Assembly: GCF_003426815.1 (NCBI RefSeq)
Contig: NZ_QKYK01000001.1
Span: 310,001 to 374,000, forward strand
DNA from: Desertimonas flava
GTDB taxonomy: Bacteria; Actinomycetota; Acidimicrobiia; Acidimicrobiales; Ilumatobacteraceae
DNA length: 64,000 nucleotides
Reading direction: 5' to 3'
A program made the translations under genes and the position numbers. The notes beneath the pieces were generated by a model. The model saw nothing but the letters and a program-made list of their open reading frames with translations, was not told the DNA's origin and did no database searches. Shown piece by piece: positions 10,386 to 33,719 of this stretch (within the stretch, counting starts at the first letter, position 1; each line of letters opens with the position of its first letter).

Positions 10386-10947
10386 ACCAGGGCTGGAGCC
10401 ACGGCGTCGCCGGCCAACCCTCGGCGGCGGCCATCAGCTCGAACGCCGTGGCGCCGTCGACGGCCTCGCGCACCATGTCGGCGTGGCCGGCGTGGCGGGC
10501 GATCTCCTCGATGAGGTGCATCAGCACCCAGCGCACCGTCCAGTTGTCGAGATCCTGCGGGTACCAGGGCACGCCCTTGGGGACCGGCACCGGTTGGTCG
10601 AGGTCGTCGATCGAGCGGATCACGGCCTCGGTCTCGGCGGCGACCTCGTCGAGCCGGGCGAGGACCCCTTGCACGGTGTCGCCGGGGCTGAACCGGAATC
10701 CCTCCATGTAGTCGTCCTGCCCGGTCGCCGGGCGCTGCCGCTGGGCGACGAGGTCGATCCAGCTCTTCTCGGTGCTGGCGACGTGCTTCAACAGGCCACC
10801 GACGCTCAGCGAACTGCAGGCCGCGGCCAGCCCGGCCTGCTCGTCGGTCAGGCCGAAGATGGCGAACCGCAGCCCGTCGCGCTGCTGGCGGATGTAGGCG
10901 AGCAGTTGCTCGCGCTCGTCGGTGATCACGGGTGCTTGTCCTGGCAT
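10369..10947 (-). CDS. DinB-fold protein (DUF664 type)
   Basis: A four-helix-bundle DinB/DUF664 protein of 192 residues from the ATG at 10947. The metal-binding histidines of this fold are present: LLKHVASTEKSW in the second helix and IARHAGHADMVREA near the C terminus. DUF664 and related DinB proteins of actinobacteria include thiol (mycothiol or bacillithiol) dependent enzymes, but most have no known reaction. The start at 10947 was preferred over an in-frame ATG at 10977 because family members begin close to PGQAPVITDEREQLL and a -10-like GATGAT lies 6 nt upstream. The 3' end runs into a 14-bp repeat that multiplies the stop. Confidence 0.8.
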   Translation of the reverse strand: MPGQAPVITDEREQLLAYIRQQRDGLRFAIFGLTDEQAGLAAACSSLSVGGLLKHVASTEKSWIDLVAQRQRPATGQDDYMEGFRFSPGDTVQGVLARLDEVAAETEAVIRSIDDLDQPVPVPKGVPWYPQDLDNWTVRWVLMHLIEEIARHAGHADMVREAVDGATAFELMAAAEGWPATPWLQPWSPAAV

Positions 10948-15210: not shown

Positions 15211-15726
15211 ATGCCCACCGAGTTGCCAGCCGACCCGGCGGGCGCCGCCGACGAGCGCACCACACTGTCCGAATTCCTCGACTACCAGCGCGCCGTCATG
15301 CTCCGCAAGGCCGAGGGTTTGACCGACGAGCAGGCCAGGGTCGCCGCGTGCCCGCCGAGTCCGATGACGATTCTCGGACTCGTGCGGCACCTCGCCGACG
15401 TGGAGCGCAGCTGGTTCCAGCGGGGTATCGCCGGGAGGGAGGCGCCGCCCCGCTTCTACGGTGCCGCCCACCCCGACGGCGACAACGACGGCGACTTCAA
15501 CGCTCCGCCCGGCGCCACGCTCGACGACGCGCTCGCCGCGCTCCAGGCCGAGATCGCCGAGAGCCGTGCGATCTTGGCCGCGGCGTCGCTCGACCAGCTC
15601 GAGACGCGCCCGGAGCGCCCGTACAGCGTGCGCTGGATCGTCGTGCACATGATCGAGGAGTACGCGCGACATCTCGGTCACGCCGATCTCCTGCGTGAGG
15701 CGATCGACGGCTCGACCGGCGACTGA
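15211..15726 (+). CDS. DinB-fold protein (DUF664 type)
   Basis: A 171-residue DinB/DUF664 four-helix protein. It carries the helix-2 histidine in LGLVRHLADVERSWFQ and the C-terminal YARHLGHADLLREAIDG motif that supplies the other metal ligands. It resembles the minus-strand DinB protein at 10369-10947 closely in layout (DEQAxxAA, HLADVERSW, SVRWxxVHMIEEYARH), so the two are paralogs. The ATG at 15211 follows GGAG with suitable spacing, directly after the MITE-like element. The reaction is unknown; a mycothiol-dependent transferase or isomerase role is possible. Confidence 0.82.
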   Translation: MPTELPADPAGAADERTTLSEFLDYQRAVMLRKAEGLTDEQARVAACPPSPMTILGLVRHLADVERSWFQRGIAGREAPPRFYGAAHPDGDNDGDFNAPPGATLDDALAALQAEIAESRAILAAASLDQLETRPERPYSVRWIVVHMIEEYARHLGHADLLREAIDGSTGD

Positions 15727-16664: not shown

Positions 16665-18095
16665 GTGAACATCACCAAGCCTTTCCGGGTCCTGCGTGTC
16701 GCGACGGCGATCGCCGCCACTACGGCCACGCTGGCTGCTTTCGGAGCGGGGACGACCTCAGCGGCCGCCCCCGCCCCTGCCCAAGTCGCCATCGACGACT
16801 CCCAGCTCGAGCTGGCCAAGCTCGGCCTGGTGATGTACGGCCTCGACGACATCGCCGGCACCGCCGCCCCCGGGGTGTGTCCGATCCTCACGTCCGACAA
16901 GGTCGGCTTCTACATGGGTCAGCTCGGCTGGGCCGGGACCTTGAACGGATACATCGCCGACGCGTCGTCGTTCGACGACATCGGCGGCCTCGGCGCCGTG
17001 TGCGGGCCCAACCCGGGTGACTTCATCGACACGCCGGATCCGGCAGCACCGTTCGCGTTCCAGATGGAAGCCCATCGCGTCGACATCACGAGCCTCCAGC
17101 AGCTGGTCGATGCACTCGGGCTCACGCTCGAGGTGTCGATCCATCCCGAGCCGACGCTCGGCGGCGAGATCGTCGCCCAGTGCGGCAGCGGCCGCCCGCG
17201 CGTGATGTGCTTCGGCGCCTGGCTGCGTTCCGGGTTCCTCTTCTTCTACTTCATGGCGGCCCCCGACGATCCCGTCGACGACGCCAAGGCCGAGCAGTTC
17301 ATGGTGTCGATGATCCCCGAAGCGGTGAGCACACTCGCGGCCTACCAGTCCGCCAGCAGCTCGCCGACGACCGTTGCGCCGACACCGGCCCCGACCGTCG
17401 CTCCGACGCCGGCCCCGACGGTGGCTCCGACGCCGGCCCCGACGGTGGCTCCGACGCCGGCCCCGACGGTGGCGCCGACGCCTCCTCCGACCGCGGCCCC
17501 GACGCCTCCGCCGACCGCAGCGCCGACGCCCGCCCCGACGGTCGCGCCGGCTCCGATCAGCGACAGCCTGTTGGCGTCGGCCGTGGCCAAGGCCCGCGTC
17601 ATCTCGCAGGACGCCACGGCCGGCACGCTCGGCGGCGACTCGCCGTGCCCGTTCATCGCCGGTGATCGGATCACCGCCCAGCTCGCCGCCTACGGCGTCA
17701 CCCACGACGGCTCGGTCTTCCGGCCTTCGATCTCGGCCGACACCTCGAGCACCGACGTGCGCGTCGTCTGCGGGCCCGGGGCGAGTGATCCGGCGACCAC
17801 CACGGTGCTCGTCTCGGCGTTCGCCCTCAACGCCGACCCATTCGCCACCTACGTGCAGAGCCTCGGTCTCGGCGCCCCGTCCGCCACGCCCGACCCGGCG
17901 GTCGGCGGGGAGTTCGCCGCGGGGTGCCCGGCGACGCCCGCTCCGGCCGTCGCCTGCTACGCCACGTGGCACCGCAGCGGGCTCGTCGTCACGTTCACGG
18001 TGTCGGGTCCCGCCGGCACGCTCACCGACGGCCACGCCTACGCCCTGCTGACCAGCCTCGTCCCCGAGATCGTCAACAACGTCGTCAACTACTGA
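16665..18095 (+). CDS. Secreted protein with duplicated Cys-containing domain and PT-rich linker
   Basis: A 476-residue protein starting with GTG. An N-terminal signal (FRVLRVATAIAATTATLAAF, cleavage near TTSAAA) is followed by domain 1 (about 50-225), a 60-residue linker of VAPTPAPT/APTPPPT repeats (about 234-296; the DNA repeats in 24-bp units), and domain 2 (about 300-476). The domains share a pattern: CP(I/F) near the start, VCGPxxxD, a GGE(I/F)xAxC block, then CxxxWxRSGL/F. Each therefore has about four conserved Cys that could form two disulfides outside the cell. No known family was recognised. The 3' end overlaps the convergent AsnC gene by 7 bp. Confidence 0.72.
   Translation: MNITKPFRVLRVATAIAATTATLAAFGAGTTSAAAPAPAQVAIDDSQLELAKLGLVMYGLDDIAGTAAPGVCPILTSDKVGFYMGQLGWAGTLNGYIADASSFDDIGGLGAVCGPNPGDFIDTPDPAAPFAFQMEAHRVDITSLQQLVDALGLTLEVSIHPEPTLGGEIVAQCGSGRPRVMCFGAWLRSGFLFFYFMAAPDDPVDDAKAEQFMVSMIPEAVSTLAAYQSASSSPTTVAPTPAPTVAPTPAPTVAPTPAPTVAPTPAPTVAPTPPPTAAPTPPPTAAPTPAPTVAPAPISDSLLASAVAKARVISQDATAGTLGGDSPCPFIAGDRITAQLAAYGVTHDGSVFRPSISADTSSTDVRVVCGPGASDPATTTVLVSAFALNADPFATYVQSLGLGAPSATPDPAVGGEFAAGCPATPAPAVACYATWHRSGLVVTFTVSGPAGTLTDGHAYALLTSLVPEIVNNVVNY
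17365..17552 (+). repeat. 24-bp tandem repeats encoding VAPTPAPT linker
   Basis: An in-frame array of 24-bp units coding for VAPTPAPT and AAPTPPPT variants. It forms the flexible spacer between the two domains of the secreted protein. Such Pro/Thr spacers keep domains apart outside the cell and often change in copy number between strains. Confidence 0.85.
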
Positions 18096-18565
18096 TCGTT
18101 CGTCCCGAGCAGCGCGGCCACGGCTGCGCTGCTCGGCGACACGCGGTTCACCGGCGAGTTGAGGACGAGCGTCGTCGTCGTTCGCGTCACCCCGGGAGCG
18201 GTGAGCACGGCCTCGACCACGTCGTGCAGATGCTCGTTGTCACGGGCGACGACCCGGCAGAAGAGATCGCCCGGCCCGGTGATCTTGTGCACCTCCAATA
18301 CCTCGGGCACGGTGCCGATGACGTGGAGGGCCGAGGACTCCTGGCCCTGGGCGATCTCGAGCGTCATGAAGGCCAACACCCCGAACCCGGCCGCCTTGAG
18401 ATCGACGACCGGCTCGTAGCCGGCCACGACGCCATCTCGCTGCAATCGGTCGAGGCGGGCCTGCAGGGTGTTGCGGGCGACGCCGAGACGCCGGGACAGC
18501 TCGAGCATGTTCGGCCTGGTGAGCGGGGCCAGTGCGTCCATCAGGTCGCGATCGGTGATCGCCAT
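18089..18565 (-). CDS. Lrp/AsnC-family regulator of the tyrosine operon
   Basis: A 158-residue Lrp/AsnC protein: an N-terminal winged helix (DRDLMDALAPLTRPNMLELSRRLGVARNTLQARLDRLQRDGVV) and a C-terminal RAM ligand-binding domain (VLAFMTLEIAQG, ITGPGDLFCRVVARDNEHLHDVVEAVL, TRTTTTLVL). It is divergent from the HPPD gene, with 105 bp between the starts, so it very probably controls the tyrosine genes and itself, with an aromatic amino acid or a breakdown product as ligand. A palindrome at 18609-18638 is a candidate binding site. The gene overlaps the convergent secreted-protein gene by 7 bp. Confidence 0.85.
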   Translation of the reverse strand: MAITDRDLMDALAPLTRPNMLELSRRLGVARNTLQARLDRLQRDGVVAGYEPVVDLKAAGFGVLAFMTLEIAQGQESSALHVIGTVPEVLEVHKITGPGDLFCRVVARDNEHLHDVVEAVLTAPGVTRTTTTLVLNSPVNRVSPSSAAVAALLGTNDQ

Positions 18566-18670: not shown

Positions 18671-19795
18671 ATGAGCGCACCAACGACCGCAGCAACCGCC
18701 GTGCCGCCCGCCGCCCACCTCCGCGGTTGGGACTGCATCGAGTTCTGGGTCGGCAACGCCCGCACCACCGCCGGGTTCCTCATGTCGGCGTTCGGGTTCC
18801 GCTGCACCGGTTACGCCGGTCCCGAAACTGGACGCCGCGACAAGGCCAGCTATGTGCTCGAACAGGGCGACATCCGCCTCGTGGTGTCCGGCGCCCTCGA
18901 GGCCGGCTCACCCATCGCCGACCACGTCCGTACCCACGGCGACGGCGTCCACGACCTCGCCTGGGTGGTCGACGACGCCCGTGCGACGTACGAGGCGGCG
19001 ATCAACCGTGGTGCGCGAAGCGTCCGCGAGCCGTGGATCGAGCACGACGACAACGGCGATCTCGAGTTGGCCCAGGTGGCCACGTACGGCGAGACGGTGC
19101 ACACGTTCGTCGACCGCCACAGGTACCGGGGCGGGCTCGAGCCGGGCTACACGAACGACAACCTGCCCAACCCCACGGTCGGCCCGGCGGTGGGCCTCGT
19201 CGCCATCGACCACGTCGTCGGCAACGTCGCCGAGGGCCAGCTCGACACGTGGGTGCAGTTCTACGCCGACGTCATGGGCTTCTCACCGCTGGTCCACTTC
19301 GACGACGACCAGATCCGCACCGAGTACTCGGCGCTGATGTCCACCGTCGTCTGGGACGGCAGCAAGATCGTCATGCCGATCAACGAGCCGGCCGAAGGCC
19401 GCAAGAAGAGCCAGATCCAGGAGTACATCGAGCACTACGACGGCGCCGGTGTTCAGCACATCGCCCTGCGCACCGACGACATCGTCGCCGCCGTCCAGGC
19501 GCTCCGCGATCGCGGCGTGCGGTTCATGACCGTGCCCGACACGTACTACGCCGAGGCCAAGCAGCGCCTCGCCGAGTTCGACCTGCCGTGGCCGGAACTG
19601 CAGCGCCTGAACATCCTCGGCGACAAGGACCACGACGGCTACCTGCTGCAGATCTTCACCGAGACGATCACCGATCGCCCCGCCGTCTTCTTCGAGATCA
19701 TCGAACGGCACGGCGCGAAGGGATTCGGCGAGGGCAACTTCAAGGCGTTGTTCGAGGCCATCGAGCGCGACCAAGCCCGCCGCGGCAATCTGTGA
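18671..19795 (+). CDS. hppD: 4-hydroxyphenylpyruvate dioxygenase
   Basis: A 374-residue Fe(II) dioxygenase that turns 4-hydroxyphenylpyruvate into homogentisate, the second step of tyrosine breakdown. It has two vicinal-oxygen-chelate halves. The iron ligands fit VAIDHVVGN (first His), GVQHIALRT (second His) and VFFEIIERHGAKGFGEGNFKALF (Glu), the last being the typical C-terminal signature of the family. QIFTETITDRP precedes it. The ATG at 18671 has no clear ribosome site. It is the first gene of a set with the aminotransferase fusion, fumarylacetoacetase and homogentisate dioxygenase, and is divergent from an AsnC regulator. Confidence 0.95.
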   Translation: MSAPTTAATAVPPAAHLRGWDCIEFWVGNARTTAGFLMSAFGFRCTGYAGPETGRRDKASYVLEQGDIRLVVSGALEAGSPIADHVRTHGDGVHDLAWVVDDARATYEAAINRGARSVREPWIEHDDNGDLELAQVATYGETVHTFVDRHRYRGGLEPGYTNDNLPNPTVGPAVGLVAIDHVVGNVAEGQLDTWVQFYADVMGFSPLVHFDDDQIRTEYSALMSTVVWDGSKIVMPINEPAEGRKKSQIQEYIEHYDGAGVQHIALRTDDIVAAVQALRDRGVRFMTVPDTYYAEAKQRLAEFDLPWPELQRLNILGDKDHDGYLLQIFTETITDRPAVFFEIIERHGAKGFGEGNFKALFEAIERDQARRGNL

Positions 19796-19823: not shown

Positions 19824-21536
19824 GTGGTGAGGCCCCATCCCCGGGTGGCCGGGCTGCCGCGGTATCAGCCCGGACGTTCGGAAGCGGACGCGATGGCGGC
19901 GTACGGGCTCGACTCGGCCGTCAAGCTGGCGTCCAACGAGACGCCGTTCGGGCCGCTGCCGGGCGTCGCCGATGCCGTGTCCGCGGTCCTTGGCGGGATC
20001 AACCGCTACGCCGACCACACGGCCGACGCCGTCGCCCGATGCTTCGCCCACCGCGTCGGCGTGGACCGCGACCACGTCGCCGTCGGTCCGGGCGCCGTCG
20101 GGCTGCTCGAGCAACTGGCTCTCGCCGTCGCCGGCCCGGGCGACGAGGTCGTGTATCCGTGGCCGAGCTTCATCGCCTATCCGCAGTTCACGGGGCTCGC
20201 CGGGGCGACACCGGTCGCCGTCCCGCTCGTCCGCCAACGCTTCGACACCGATGCCGTGATCGCGGCGATGTCCGAGCGCACCATGCTCGTCCTGCTCGCC
20301 AATCCCAACAACCCGACATCGACCGCGCTCACCGCCACCGAGCTCGATCGGATCGTCGACGCGGCCCCCGAACAGTGCCTCGTCGTGATCGACGAGGCAT
20401 ACCGCGAGTTCGTCACCGACGTCTCGGTCCCCGACGCCATCGCCCGCTACGCGGACCGGCCCAACGTCGCCGTCCTGCGCTCGATGTCGAAGGCCTACGG
20501 GCTCGCCGGGTTGCGGGTGGGATTCCTCGTCGCCGACCCGCTGGTCATCGCGGCCGTCGACGCCTGCGCCACACCGTTCGGAGTGAACGCCGCCGGCCAG
20601 GCCGGCGCACTCGCCGCGTTCGAACAGGACGACGAGGTCCGCCGCCGGTGCGCCATCGTCGTCGCCGAGCGGGACCGGGTCGCCCGAGCGCTGCGCCATC
20701 TCGGCGTCGGGGTACCGGTGAGCCACGGCAACTTCTGGTGGCTCGCCGCCGGCTCCGGAGCGCATCCGCTCGCCGAGGCGCTCGAACGGCGTGGCGTCGT
20801 CACCCGGCCGCTCGACGGTGGCGTGCGGGTCACGGTCGGAACGCCGGCCGAGAACGACCGCTTCCTCGCCGCCCTCGAGGCGTGCCTGAACGATGCCCCC
20901 GACCTGCTCAGCGGTTGGACGATCGCGACGGGACAGCAGGCCCAGCGGGCAGCCCGATGGCTCGACCGGCTGGAGTCGGCGATGACGCGCCTCGCGTCAC
21001 ACCTCGACCGCGAGCATCCCGGTCGCACGGCACCCGTGCCGGGCGAGGACGAGACGTGGGACGCCGGGCAGGTCTGGGCCCACGTCGCCGAGTTCGGCCA
21101 GTACTGGCTCGGTCAGCTGACGGCGATCCTCGACGCGGCCTCGACGGAGCCGGTGCCGTTCGGACGCACCCGCCGAGATGCCGGGCGCATCGAGGCGATC
21201 GAACGCGGACGCCACGACGACCCGGCCGAGCACCTCGCCGTCGTCACCGCGTCGGCGGGGCGTCTCGCCGAATTGCTCGCCGGGATGACGAATGAAGACT
21301 GGGAACGCGCCGGTGTCCATGAGACACTCGGGGTGATGGATCTCGACGATCAGCTCCGTCATTTCCACGTTGGCCACTACGAAGAGCACGCCGACCAGCT
21401 CGATTCGATTCTGCACCGTTCCCCGGCCACGCAGGCCGGGGCGCCGGCTCCTTCCGCCAGCGCTCCAGTCGCCTCCCCGCTCGAACGCCGGGACGCTCTC
21501 TGGCGCTCGCTGGACTCCGGACGGGAGCCGCCGTGA
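19824..21536 (+). CDS. Aromatic aminotransferase fused to a DinB domain
   Basis: A 570-residue fusion. Residues 1 to about 360 are a class I/II PLP aminotransferase of the HisC/Pat type (SNETPFGP, NPNNPTS, VVIDEAYREF, SMSKAYGLAGLRVG with PLP Lys223). This should convert tyrosine or phenylalanine to the keto acid used by HPPD. Residues about 367-530 form a DinB four-helix domain with His420 (VWAHVAEFGQYW) and His518/His522 (GHYEEH), the metal triad of thiol-dependent DinB enzymes. A Pro/Ala-rich tail follows, whose DNA shares 20 bp with the repeat at 8649. The stop overlaps the fumarylacetoacetase start by 1 bp. The DinB half could act as maleylacetoacetate isomerase, which the operon otherwise lacks. 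Confidence 0.88.
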   Translation: MVRPHPRVAGLPRYQPGRSEADAMAAYGLDSAVKLASNETPFGPLPGVADAVSAVLGGINRYADHTADAVARCFAHRVGVDRDHVAVGPGAVGLLEQLALAVAGPGDEVVYPWPSFIAYPQFTGLAGATPVAVPLVRQRFDTDAVIAAMSERTMLVLLANPNNPTSTALTATELDRIVDAAPEQCLVVIDEAYREFVTDVSVPDAIARYADRPNVAVLRSMSKAYGLAGLRVGFLVADPLVIAAVDACATPFGVNAAGQAGALAAFEQDDEVRRRCAIVVAERDRVARALRHLGVGVPVSHGNFWWLAAGSGAHPLAEALERRGVVTRPLDGGVRVTVGTPAENDRFLAALEACLNDAPDLLSGWTIATGQQAQRAARWLDRLESAMTRLASHLDREHPGRTAPVPGEDETWDAGQVWAHVAEFGQYWLGQLTAILDAASTEPVPFGRTRRDAGRIEAIERGRHDDPAEHLAVVTASAGRLAELLAGMTNEDWERAGVHETLGVMDLDDQLRHFHVGHYEEHADQLDSILHRSPATQAGAPAPSASAPVASPLERRDALWRSLDSGREPP

Positions 21537-22708
21537 TGTCCTGGGTCGACGTCCCGGAGGGGTCGGACTTCCCGATCGAGAACCTCCCGTTCGGCATCTT
21601 CCGGCCGCGTGACGAGGAGCCCCGCGTCGGCGTCCGCATCGGTGACCACGTCGTCGACGTGGCCGCCGCCGGGATCGAGCCCGACCTCGCCGCCCGGCCG
21701 TCGCTGAACGCGCTGATGGCCAGCGGCCATGGCGGGGCCGTGCGCGAGCGCGTCGCCGAGTTGCTCACCGGACCCGAACGACCCGACGTCGTCCACCCGA
21801 TCGCCGACGTGCAGGTGCTGATGCCGATCGACGTCGTCGACTACATCGACTTCTACTCGTCGATCCACCACGCCACGAACCTCGGCCGCATCCTGCGCCC
21901 GGACAGCGAGCCGCTCCTGCCCAACTGGCGGCAGCTCCCCGTCGCCTATCACGGACGGGCCCGCACCGTGGTCGTCAGCGGAACCCCCGTGGAACGCCCG
22001 GCCGGGCTCGTCGCCGACGCATCGGGAACCGGCCGGCTCACGCCGACCCGAGCGCTCGACATCGAGCTGGAGGTCGGGTTCCTGGTCGGCGGTCAACCGG
22101 CCGCGCGCATCGAACCCGACCACGCCGACCGCCACGTCTTCGGTGTCGTGCTCCTCAACGACTGGTCGGCCCGCGACATCCAGGGCTTCGAGTACCAGCC
22201 GCTCGGCCCGCACCTCGCCAAGAGCTTCGCCACGACCATCTCGCCGTGGGTGGTCACCCTCGAGGCCCTGCGTCCGTATCTCGTGGAACCGCCGGCGCAG
22301 GAACCGCCGCCCGATCCGTACCTGCGGGCGGCTCTGCCCTGGGCTGTCGATCTGGAGCTGCGCGTCGAGCTCAACGGGACCCCGATCACCGCCACCAACT
22401 TTTCCCACATGTACTGGACGTTCGCCCAGCAACTCGCCCATCTCACCGTCAACGGGGCGCCGGCGGGTTCGGGTGACCTGTTCGGCTCCGGCACCGTCAG
22501 CGGCCCCACCAAGGGCGAGCGCGGCAGCCTCATCGAGCTCACGTGGCGCGGGGCCGAACCCCTCACCCTGGACGACGGAAGCACCCGGACGTTCCTCGAG
22601 GACGGCGACACGGTGACGGTCCGCGGATGGTGCGGAGGCGGCGACCGTCCGCGCATTGGGTTCGGCGAGGCGACCGGCACCATCGTGCCGACCCCGGAGG
22701 CGCCATGA
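21536..22708 (+). CDS. fahA: Fumarylacetoacetase
   Basis: A 390-residue fumarylacetoacetate hydrolase, last enzyme of tyrosine breakdown, giving fumarate and acetoacetate. The active site is clear: DYIDFYSSIHHATN (metal Asp and catalytic His), ALDIELEVGF (two metal Glu), VLLNDWSARDIQGFEYQPLGPHLAK (metal Asp and catalytic Lys), and the YHGRA segment. Length is slightly below the usual 415-420. The start is ATG 21536, which overlaps the TGA of the fusion gene by 1 bp; a GTG 3 bp earlier is also possible. Its 3' end overlaps the next gene by 4 bp. Confidence 0.94.
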   Translation: MSWVDVPEGSDFPIENLPFGIFRPRDEEPRVGVRIGDHVVDVAAAGIEPDLAARPSLNALMASGHGGAVRERVAELLTGPERPDVVHPIADVQVLMPIDVVDYIDFYSSIHHATNLGRILRPDSEPLLPNWRQLPVAYHGRARTVVVSGTPVERPAGLVADASGTGRLTPTRALDIELEVGFLVGGQPAARIEPDHADRHVFGVVLLNDWSARDIQGFEYQPLGPHLAKSFATTISPWVVTLEALRPYLVEPPAQEPPPDPYLRAALPWAVDLELRVELNGTPITATNFSHMYWTFAQQLAHLTVNGAPAGSGDLFGSGTVSGPTKGERGSLIELTWRGAEPLTLDDGSTRTFLEDGDTVTVRGWCGGGDRPRIGFGEATGTIVPTPEAP

Positions 22709-23868
22709 CGTACTACCGAACCGTCGGAGCGATCCCTCGGAAGCGGCACACCCTGCATCGCGTCGACGGTCAGGTGTGCGTCGAGGAACTGGTGGGGGAG
22801 GAGGGGTTCTCCGGTCCGTCGAGCCTGCTGTACCACCGCCACTCGCCGAGTGCGATCGTCGCGATCGAATCCGTCGACATCGACGAGCCGGTGTTCGGCC
22901 CGAACCTGCCGGTCACGCCGCACCATCTCCGGACCGGCGACGTCCCGGCCGGCGACGACGCCGTGACCGCCCGCACGGCCCTGCTCGGCAACGAGGACGT
23001 GGAGATCGGCGTCGCCACCGCGACGCGCACCAGCCCGCTATATCGCGACGCCGTCGGCGACCAGCTCGTGTACGTGCAATCCGGGTCGGCCGTGCTCGAG
23101 AGCGTGTTCGGGCGCCTGCCCGTCCGCGACGGCGACTACGTCGTGATCCCCACCGGGATCACCCATCGCTGGGTGATCGAGGGGGACAGCGGCGTCGAGC
23201 TGCTCGTCGTGCGGTCCCGCAGCCACATCGGCGTGCCGCGCAAGTACCTCACCCCCACCGGGCAGCTGGCCGAGGGCGCGCCGTTCTCGGAGCGCGACCT
23301 GCGCGGGCCCGAGCCCGAACCGTTGCTCGTCGAGGGTGCCGACGTCGACGTGCTGGTCCGCGCGCGCGCCGGATGGAGCCGTCACGTCCATCGCGACCAC
23401 CCGTTCGACGTCGTCGGCTGGGACGGGTGTGTGTACCCGTGGGCGCTCAGCATCCACGACTTCGAGCCGATCGTCGGACGCATCCACCAACCGCCGCCCG
23501 TCCACCAGACGTTCGCCGGCGACGGCTTCGTCGTCTGCTCGTTCGTGCCGCGCTTGTTCGACTTCGACCCGCACGCCGTGAAGGTCCCGTACCACCACGC
23601 CAACGTCGACTCCGACGAGGTCTTGTACTACTCGGCCGGTGACTTCATGAGCCGATCGGGCTCGGGCATCGGGGTCGGTTCGATCAGCCTGCACCCAGCC
23701 GGGTTCACGCACGGGCCCCAGCCGGGCAGCCGCGAGCGGAGTGAGGAGCAAGCGGAGACCGCCGAGGTCGCCGTGATGGTCGACACGTTCCGGCCGCTCG
23801 GACTGAGCGACGCCGCCCGGGCGATCAGCGACCCGGACTACCCGTGGTCCTGGGCCGGCGGGCGCTGA
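22705..23868 (+). CDS. hmgA: Homogentisate 1,2-dioxygenase
   Basis: A 387-residue cupin-type Fe(II) dioxygenase that opens homogentisate to maleylacetoacetate. It shows MTYYRTVGAIPRKRHT at the N terminus, LLYHRHSPSAI, a cupin strand series around VYVQSGSAVLESVFGRLPVRDGDYVVIPTGITHRW, YYSAGDFMSRSGSGIGVGSISLHPAGFTHGP (iron-site region) and VMVDTFRPLGLS at the end. It is shorter than the eukaryotic type (about 440), as is common for the actinobacterial branch. It starts in an ATGA overlap with the fumarylacetoacetase gene, so the ring-cleavage and hydrolysis steps are translationally coupled. It ends the tyrosine operon. Confidence 0.9.
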   Translation: MTYYRTVGAIPRKRHTLHRVDGQVCVEELVGEEGFSGPSSLLYHRHSPSAIVAIESVDIDEPVFGPNLPVTPHHLRTGDVPAGDDAVTARTALLGNEDVEIGVATATRTSPLYRDAVGDQLVYVQSGSAVLESVFGRLPVRDGDYVVIPTGITHRWVIEGDSGVELLVVRSRSHIGVPRKYLTPTGQLAEGAPFSERDLRGPEPEPLLVEGADVDVLVRARAGWSRHVHRDHPFDVVGWDGCVYPWALSIHDFEPIVGRIHQPPPVHQTFAGDGFVVCSFVPRLFDFDPHAVKVPYHHANVDSDEVLYYSAGDFMSRSGSGIGVGSISLHPAGFTHGPQPGSRERSEEQAETAEVAVMVDTFRPLGLSDAARAISDPDYPWSWAGGR

Positions 23869-33167: not shown

Positions 33168-33719
33168 ATGAACCCGGCCGACGAGCACCGGCTCATCGCC
33201 GCCGAGTTCACGGCCACCGTCGAAGGGGTCGCGCCGGCAGCGTGGGAGCGGCCGGCGCCGCCCCACGGCTGGGTGGCCCGCGACGTCGTGCGACACCTCG
33301 TGGAGTGGTTCCCCGCGTTCTTGGAGGGGTCGACGGGGATCACCCTGCCGGCCAGACCGTCGGTGGACGACGATCCGGGCGGTGCCTGGCGCGCCCACAC
33401 CGACGCCGTCCAAGCGCTGCTCGACGACCCGGCCACCGCTGATCGTGAGTACGACCTGCCGCACATCGGGCGGATGACCCTCGGCCAGGCGGTGGCGATG
33501 ATCTACACCGGCGACGTCTTCCTGCACCGCTGGGATCTCGCCCGGGCCACCGGCCAGGACGAGCGCCTCGACCCCGGCCGGTGCGCCGAGATGCTCGCCG
33601 GCATGCTGCCGATGGACGAGGCGCTCCGCCAGAGCGGCCACTACGGCCCCAAGGTGGAGGTCGCCGACGACGCCGACGTGCAGACCAAGCTGCTCGCGTT
33701 CATCGGGCGGACCCCGTAG
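33168..33719 (+). CDS. TIGR03086-type metal-binding protein (DinB/MDMPI fold)
   Basis: A 183-residue protein of the TIGR03086 / mycothiol-dependent maleylpyruvate isomerase N-domain family. Likely metal ligands are in VVRHLVEWFPAFL and YTGDVFLHRWDLARATGQ, the second being the family hallmark (H-x-W-D-L-A). It is the third gene of the ArsR operon, starting at the base after the AHSA1 stop. A mycothiol-dependent reaction is plausible from the family, but not shown. Together with the genes at 10369, 15211 and 19824 it is one of four DinB-fold domains in the window. Confidence 0.82.
   Translation: MNPADEHRLIAAEFTATVEGVAPAAWERPAPPHGWVARDVVRHLVEWFPAFLEGSTGITLPARPSVDDDPGGAWRAHTDAVQALLDDPATADREYDLPHIGRMTLGQAVAMIYTGDVFLHRWDLARATGQDERLDPGRCAEMLAGMLPMDEALRQSGHYGPKVEVADDADVQTKLLAFIGRTP

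Follow-up and report, generated by a model that had tools for sequence, protein, structure and literature searches.

A DinB-fold domain fused to an aromatic aminotransferase is a probable non-GST maleylacetoacetate isomerase in the tyrosine-degradation operon of Desertimonas flava

A single gene of Desertimonas flava joins a PLP-dependent aminotransferase to a DinB-type domain within an operon for tyrosine breakdown. In the best-supported reading of this arrangement, which we consider likely to be correct, the product is a bifunctional aromatic aminotransferase/DinB-fold maleylacetoacetate isomerase that replaces the zeta-class GST. With slightly less assurance, we further propose that the DinB half probably represents a non-GST, DinB-fold family of maleylacetoacetate isomerases that occurs in Actinomycetota, Chloroflexota and Dormibacterota and has become joined to PLP enzymes of two unrelated kinds (an aromatic aminotransferase and, at locus L142, a threonine-dehydratase-like protein), and that the polypeptide described here would cover steps 1 and 4 of tyrosine breakdown. 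The gene lies in a stretch of 64,000 nucleotides (positions 310,001 to 374,000 of contig NZ_QKYK01000001.1), referred to below as the window.

The ORF (19824-21536, + strand) starts with GTG, is uninterrupted and specifies 570 amino acids. Pfam models matched both parts of the product, Aminotran_1_2 at residues 33-351 (172 bits) and DinB_2 at residues 401-525 (25.4 bits, above the cut-off), and AlphaFold modelled both halves confidently. These results confirmed the union of the two domains in one ORF that was noticed in the first-pass annotation, and the PLP lysine (residue 223) and three histidines (420, 518 and 522) were found at the positions assigned to them there. The order of the operon is 4-hydroxyphenylpyruvate dioxygenase (HPPD), aminotransferase-DinB fusion, fumarylacetoacetase (FAH) and homogentisate 1,2-dioxygenase (HGD), and matches to TIGR01263, TIGR01266 and HgmA_N back the earlier identification of the genes around the fusion (Table 1). 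The stop codon of the fusion overlaps the GTG start of FAH by 4 bp, and the FAH stop overlaps the ATG start of HGD by 4 bp; these overlaps at the last two junctions suggest translational coupling. A start of HGD at 22543 was rejected, since the homologues start at the ATG at 22705, which overlaps the FAH stop. From its position, the Lrp/AsnC-family gene is a possible regulator of the operon. As a separate observation, 16665-18095 encodes a secreted-looking protein in which a long proline-rich repeat linker of the PTPAPTVA type joins two similar domains.

Table 1. Genes and domains of the tyrosine-degradation operon in the window, and loci of the gene X family discussed in the text.
Feature	Coordinates	Strand	Evidence or remarks
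Lrp/AsnC-family regulator; possible regulator	18089..18565	-	Pfam AsnC_trans_reg 57 bits; divergent from operon
4-hydroxyphenylpyruvate dioxygenase (HPPD), step 2	18671..19795	+	TIGR01263 430 bits, cut-off 277
Aminotransferase half, residues 1-357, Rv3772-type aromatic aminotransferase, step 1	19824..20894	+	PRK03321 394 bits, cut-off 374
DinB/STL-fold half, residues 358-570, proposed maleylacetoacetate isomerase, step 4	20895..21536	+	Domain match, model, context, co-occurrence
Fumarylacetoacetase (FAH), step 5, GTG start	21533..22708	+	TIGR01266 411 bits, cut-off 375
Divergent homogentisate 1,2-dioxygenase (HGD), step 3, ATG start	22705..23868	+	HgmA_N + Cupin_2
Gene X loci	L075 2260-3189, L080 9405-10334, L085 9418-10371, L108 9496-10410, and about nine more		

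The HGD of the operon is a divergent one. It scored 41 bits with TIGR01015, below the cut-off of 510.75, and aligned over 240 residues with the human enzyme (PDB 1ey2, E=2.6e-4). Homologues were found in 44 of the 296 genomes of the class that were sampled, most of them within HPPD/FAH clusters. Because of this clustering with HPPD and FAH, the protein is treated here as one that probably functions like HGD. It was also observed that the sequence encoded at 22705-23868 has Asp where the human PF-x-VV-x-W-H motif has His.

The closest solved relative of the aminotransferase half, both by sequence and by fold, was PDB 4r2n, the Rv3772 protein of M. tuberculosis (43% identity). Rv3772 is an aromatic aminotransferase that prefers Phe, Tyr and Trp, and its pocket comprises Val86, Phe110, Leu112 and Phe246 plus Arg322/Arg330 (PMC4703992). 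When these residues were mapped onto the fusion through the alignment of the two sequences, three of the four pocket residues were found to be kept (Val86=V92, Phe110=F116 and Phe246=F252, with Leu112=A118 as the exception), as were both arginines (Arg322=R328 and Arg330=R335); K223 likewise agrees with the aromatic aminotransferase. The possibility that this half is the HisC of the genome was discarded: it scored 260.7-262.5 bits with the HisC model TIGR01141, below the cut-off of 276.6; it has Phe116 at the position of Phe110, where a Tyr is expected of HisC; and a separate gene (C73:70440-71468) reached 308 bits to HisC, so histidine synthesis does not depend on the fusion. With an aromatic-type pocket present and a separate HisC elsewhere, the earlier assignment of step 1, from tyrosine to 4-hydroxyphenylpyruvate, to the aminotransferase half is well-founded on grounds of homology. 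Unlike this half, Rv3772 itself is unfused, and it is not known to be part of a tyrosine-degradation operon.

Taken alone, the DinB half scored 28.1 bits with DinB_2, above the cut-off. The MDMPI_N model gave a weak, partial match (25.2 bits, cut-off 24.2, profile positions 3-114 of 140) and matched 13 of 28 relatives at E≤0.1; no NCBIfam model covering the subfamily was found. An AlphaFold model of this half, obtained with 28 relatives as input, had a mean pLDDT of 92.8. A fold search of the PDB returned YfiT/BstA as the best match (Z 16.2, 154 residues, rmsd 3.3), and further matches included a mycothiol S-transferase with mycothiol and Zn (Z 12.2) and the maleylpyruvate isomerase 2nsf (Z 12.2, with only chain residues 6-154 aligned); with Z differences below 1 counted as ties, only YfiT is clearly ahead. 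As judged from the model, the DinB half belongs to the DinB/STL superfamily and is a DinB-type four-helix bundle. The metal residues of BstA/YfiT are H67, H160 and H164 (PMC5815605), and a profile alignment to YfiT placed His420, His518 and His522 on them column for column. This triad, already pointed out in the first-pass annotation, is invariant in 28/28 sequences, a conservation that is partly selected in that 19 of the rows were found by two short patterns, one close to His420 and the other to His518/522; the nine rows that were picked purely for their similarity likewise keep the triad, R448 and R455 without exception. Residues W412, W428, G447, R448, Q525 and L526 are also invariant in the 28 sequences, and R455 and E423 are nearly so. 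The collection was scanned for DinB relatives with a three-row alignment, an eight-row alignment (A1) being too divergent.

The resemblance to maleylpyruvate isomerase that had been proposed for the DinB half stands as an analogy and fails as membership of the same family. NCgl2918 of C. glutamicum (PDB 2nsf/2nsg) has the same DinB-type bundle and, as is proposed here, carries out a thiol-dependent cis-trans isomerization whose substrate is nearly identical and whose product passes directly to an FAA-hydrolase-type step. Nonetheless, it acts in a different pathway and is 14% identical to the DinB half, and its 240 residues include an extra C-terminal domain, whereas the DinB half is a single domain. 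Its metal site, His-Glu-His (Glu144/His148), differs from the His-His-His site of the DinB half, a feature that brings the latter nearer to YfiT/BstA. The maleylpyruvate isomerase of C. glutamicum is mycothiol-dependent (PMC4360819). BstA/YfiT (PDB 1rxq), the bacillithiol S-transferase of B. subtilis and a member of the STL superfamily, has the closest fold and the same triad, but is a transferase that uses bacillithiol and is about 20% identical to the DinB half. It is not known from any aromatic-catabolism operon. The zeta-class GST maleylacetoacetate isomerase (TIGR01262) has the reaction, the use of a thiol cofactor and the pathway slot that are proposed for the DinB half, but its fold is unrelated and it depends on glutathione.

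Relatives of the DinB half were gathered by similarity to it, independently of their neighborhood. The fusion was found in the HPPD/FAH/HGD loci of other genomes: L140 (an uncultured Ilumatobacter) has HPPD, fusion, FAH and HGD; L113 has HPPD, fusion and FAH, with HGD on a separate contig; in L158 the fusion is followed by FAH; and in L139 a fusion cut by the contig start is followed by FAH and HGD. This recurrence rules out an assembly artefact as the source of the fusion. No single locus is more telling than L159, which has, in this order, HPPD, a DinB gene (150 aa) that overlaps HPPD by 4 bp, FAH and HGD, and from which the aminotransferase half is absent. In the tree, the L159 DinB protein is nested in the fusion clade (98/93) as the sister of L158 (92/82), a position that is best read as a probable loss of the aminotransferase half in an operon that retained the DinB domain. 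Genomes with a separate DinB gene still have it in clusters with HPPD, HGD or fumarylacetoacetase (L159, L141, L146 and L148). L141 and L146 have their genes arranged as HPPD, HGD, FAA and DinB, and L148 and L154 have HGD plus an aminotransferase upstream of the FAA-DinB pair.

In these and further FAA-DinB pairs, mostly from Chloroflexota and Dormibacterota, a stand-alone DinB gene follows that of an FAA hydrolase of ~310 aa, usually with a 4-bp overlap; the stand-alone relatives are mostly 150-172 aa. The FAA partners are one family, mutually 45-89% identical, which also directly follows HGD in L091 and L116-L118. Placement of the stand-alone relatives in gentisate clusters was rejected, the FAA partners being the family seen beside HGD. 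The one exception is L095, where the FAA hydrolase is of another kind and its neighbor is a 2,3-dihydroxybenzoate-AMP-ligase-like gene. The partner family is only ~30% identical to the FAH of the window, and thus two distinct fumarylacetoacetases adjoin the DinB subfamily. A fumarylacetoacetase adjoins DinB in 22 of the 28 members, a count in which several Dormibacterota rows are closely related and independent lineages are fewer; the six without one are L098, L101, L110, L111, L149 and L155. At L142 (6058-7491), DinB forms an in-frame fusion with a PALP (threonine-dehydratase-like) domain. This gene has a 4-bp overlap with the FAA gene directly before it, HPPD lies upstream, and the contig, labelled Steroidobacteraceae, may be misbinned. 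Two further features of the collected loci were observed. At L110 (7688-9017) and L111 (3633-4945), DinB relatives adjoin genes for PIG-L deacetylases, whose family also contains the mycothiol S-conjugate amidases. A biopterin-dependent aromatic amino acid hydroxylase is encoded inside HPPD/FAH/HGD operons at L068 (8251-9117) and L084 (707-1597), which suggests that phenylalanine feeds the same operon.

HGD was present in all 23 DinB carriers tested, compared with 44/296 in the class; it was present even in the four tested genomes in which DinB lies away from a fumarylacetoacetase (G233, G180, G172 and G269). The DinB half was detected in ten of the 296 class genomes. Eight of these ten have HGD (hypergeometric p=4.7e-6), as do all seven with a DinB match at E≤1e-14 (p=1.0e-6), the related genomes behind both values not being independent. 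The lack of a GST-type isomerase, which the first-pass annotation had noticed in the operon, extends to the whole 6.2-Mb assembly (96.6% complete), where no TIGR01262 match was found at E≤1, and to all the DinB carriers, which come from several phyla (0/23). We rejected this absence as proof of a DinB isomerase, since none of the 296 genomes in the class sample has a GST-type isomerase above the cut-off. The absence proves little because 36 of the 44 HGD-bearing class genomes have no DinB match at E≤1e-5 either. In HGD genomes with neither enzyme, the step may be spontaneous, bypassed or carried out by another unrecognized enzyme.

A further family, gene X (~305 aa), was considered as another possible isomerase in the slot between HGD and FAH, which it occupies in about a dozen genomes without a GST-type isomerase (Table 1). 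It had no Pfam, NCBIfam or PDB match, and it carries the motifs DxAGxxPP, PxKxTAGLxxP and HGFxN. It was found in 38/296 class genomes, 17 of them with HGD (enriched, p=1.4e-6); three of the carriers have a DinB relative and HGD as well. Over half of the carriers lack HGD, which weighs against the isomerase role. As a separate observation, the window holds three more DinB-type genes (15211-15726, 33189-33542 and 10594-10890), the first of which is a clear member of the mycothiol-S-transferase family (PF04978, 169 bits).

The suggestion of the first-pass annotation that the fusion performs the first and fourth steps of the pathway is supported by gene context, co-occurrence, the triad and the fold, and is in our opinion quite probable. 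The aminotransferase half would convert tyrosine to 4-hydroxyphenylpyruvate. The DinB half, acting between HGD and FAH, would convert maleylacetoacetate to fumarylacetoacetate instead of the glutathione-dependent zeta-class GST; gene context and fold are what point to this activity (EC 5.2.1.2). It is a probable non-orthologous replacement of GST-zeta that would depend on a thiol and a metal. In a mechanism modelled by analogy on the C. glutamicum maleylpyruvate isomerase and GST-zeta, a divalent metal coordinated by the three histidines (420, 518 and 522) would bind a low-molecular-weight thiol, most likely mycothiol, and activate it as a thiolate. Addition of this thiolate to the cis double bond, rotation about the bond and elimination would then yield the trans isomer. 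Arg448 and Arg455, candidate substrate-binding residues, may grip the carboxylates of the substrate. With regard to the thiol, the genome encodes an MshC-like CysS paralogue, which scored 422 to MshC vs 333 to CysS, another CysS-like protein (288 to MshC vs 384 to CysS) and an MshA-like protein. Most carriers show the same MshC-like/CysS-like pair; G180 and G172 have only the CysS-like one. Mycothiol synthesis in D. flava is likely and not secured, because the MshC-like and MshA-like scores lie below the curated cut-offs.

Activities vary among DinB-fold proteins, and the direct competitor of the isomerase is a thiol S-transferase. In that case, the DinB half would have a protective role, trapping electrophiles (maleylacetoacetate, fumarylacetoacetate or oxidized homogentisate) as conjugates, and would not be the main-flux isomerase. 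We find this unlikely. Characterized STL members do conjugate thiols (PMC5815605), YfiT/BstA is the nearest fold of the DinB half, and a PIG-L deacetylase gene adjoins the DinB gene in L110/L111; however, the fixed coupling to fumarylacetoacetase and the fusion to a pathway enzyme suit a stoichiometric step better, neither the window nor L140 has a PIG-L gene in its fusion operon, and a GST-type isomerase is missing in every carrier tested. An isomerase is favored by how closely the DinB half is coupled to fumarylacetoacetase and HGD.

Another explanation, which we judge more doubtful still, is that no enzyme is needed, with maleylacetoacetate isomerizing spontaneously in the presence of cellular thiols or being hydrolyzed directly by FAH, and that the DinB domain is structural or unrelated. 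An intact metal site kept in 28 relatives from at least three phyla, the strict association with HGD (23/23) and the survival of an unfused DinB domain at this place of the L159 operon would be hard to accommodate; on the other side stand the 36 class genomes with HGD and neither enzyme, and a non-enzymatic glutathione bypass recorded for mice (Fernandez-Canon 2002, by its title in the references of PMC11457941). It is also conceivable, with very little probability, that the isomerase is another DinB/maleylpyruvate-isomerase paralogue encoded elsewhere and that the fused domain merely aids the aminotransferase. A helper of the aminotransferase would not track the pathway in the absence of that enzyme, as the domain does in L159, L141, L146 and others, although candidates are at hand among the 19 MDMPI_N matches in the genome, several of which score above the fused domain.

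In tyrosine breakdown, the isomerase reaction is credited to zeta GSTs that depend on glutathione, and annotators face a gap at this step in bacteria that use other thiols. No description of the DinB subfamily was found in the open-access literature, where most subscription journals are missing. On the best reading, a DinB-fold maleylacetoacetate isomerase would be new within a known superfamily, as a subfamily without a curated model. If the proposal is true, this isomerase would fill part of the gap and show that the reaction has been solved in two different ways, a set of genes now called 'DinB family protein' would become a named enzyme that is simple to assay, and the odd fusion of two non-consecutive steps of the pathway would be explained.
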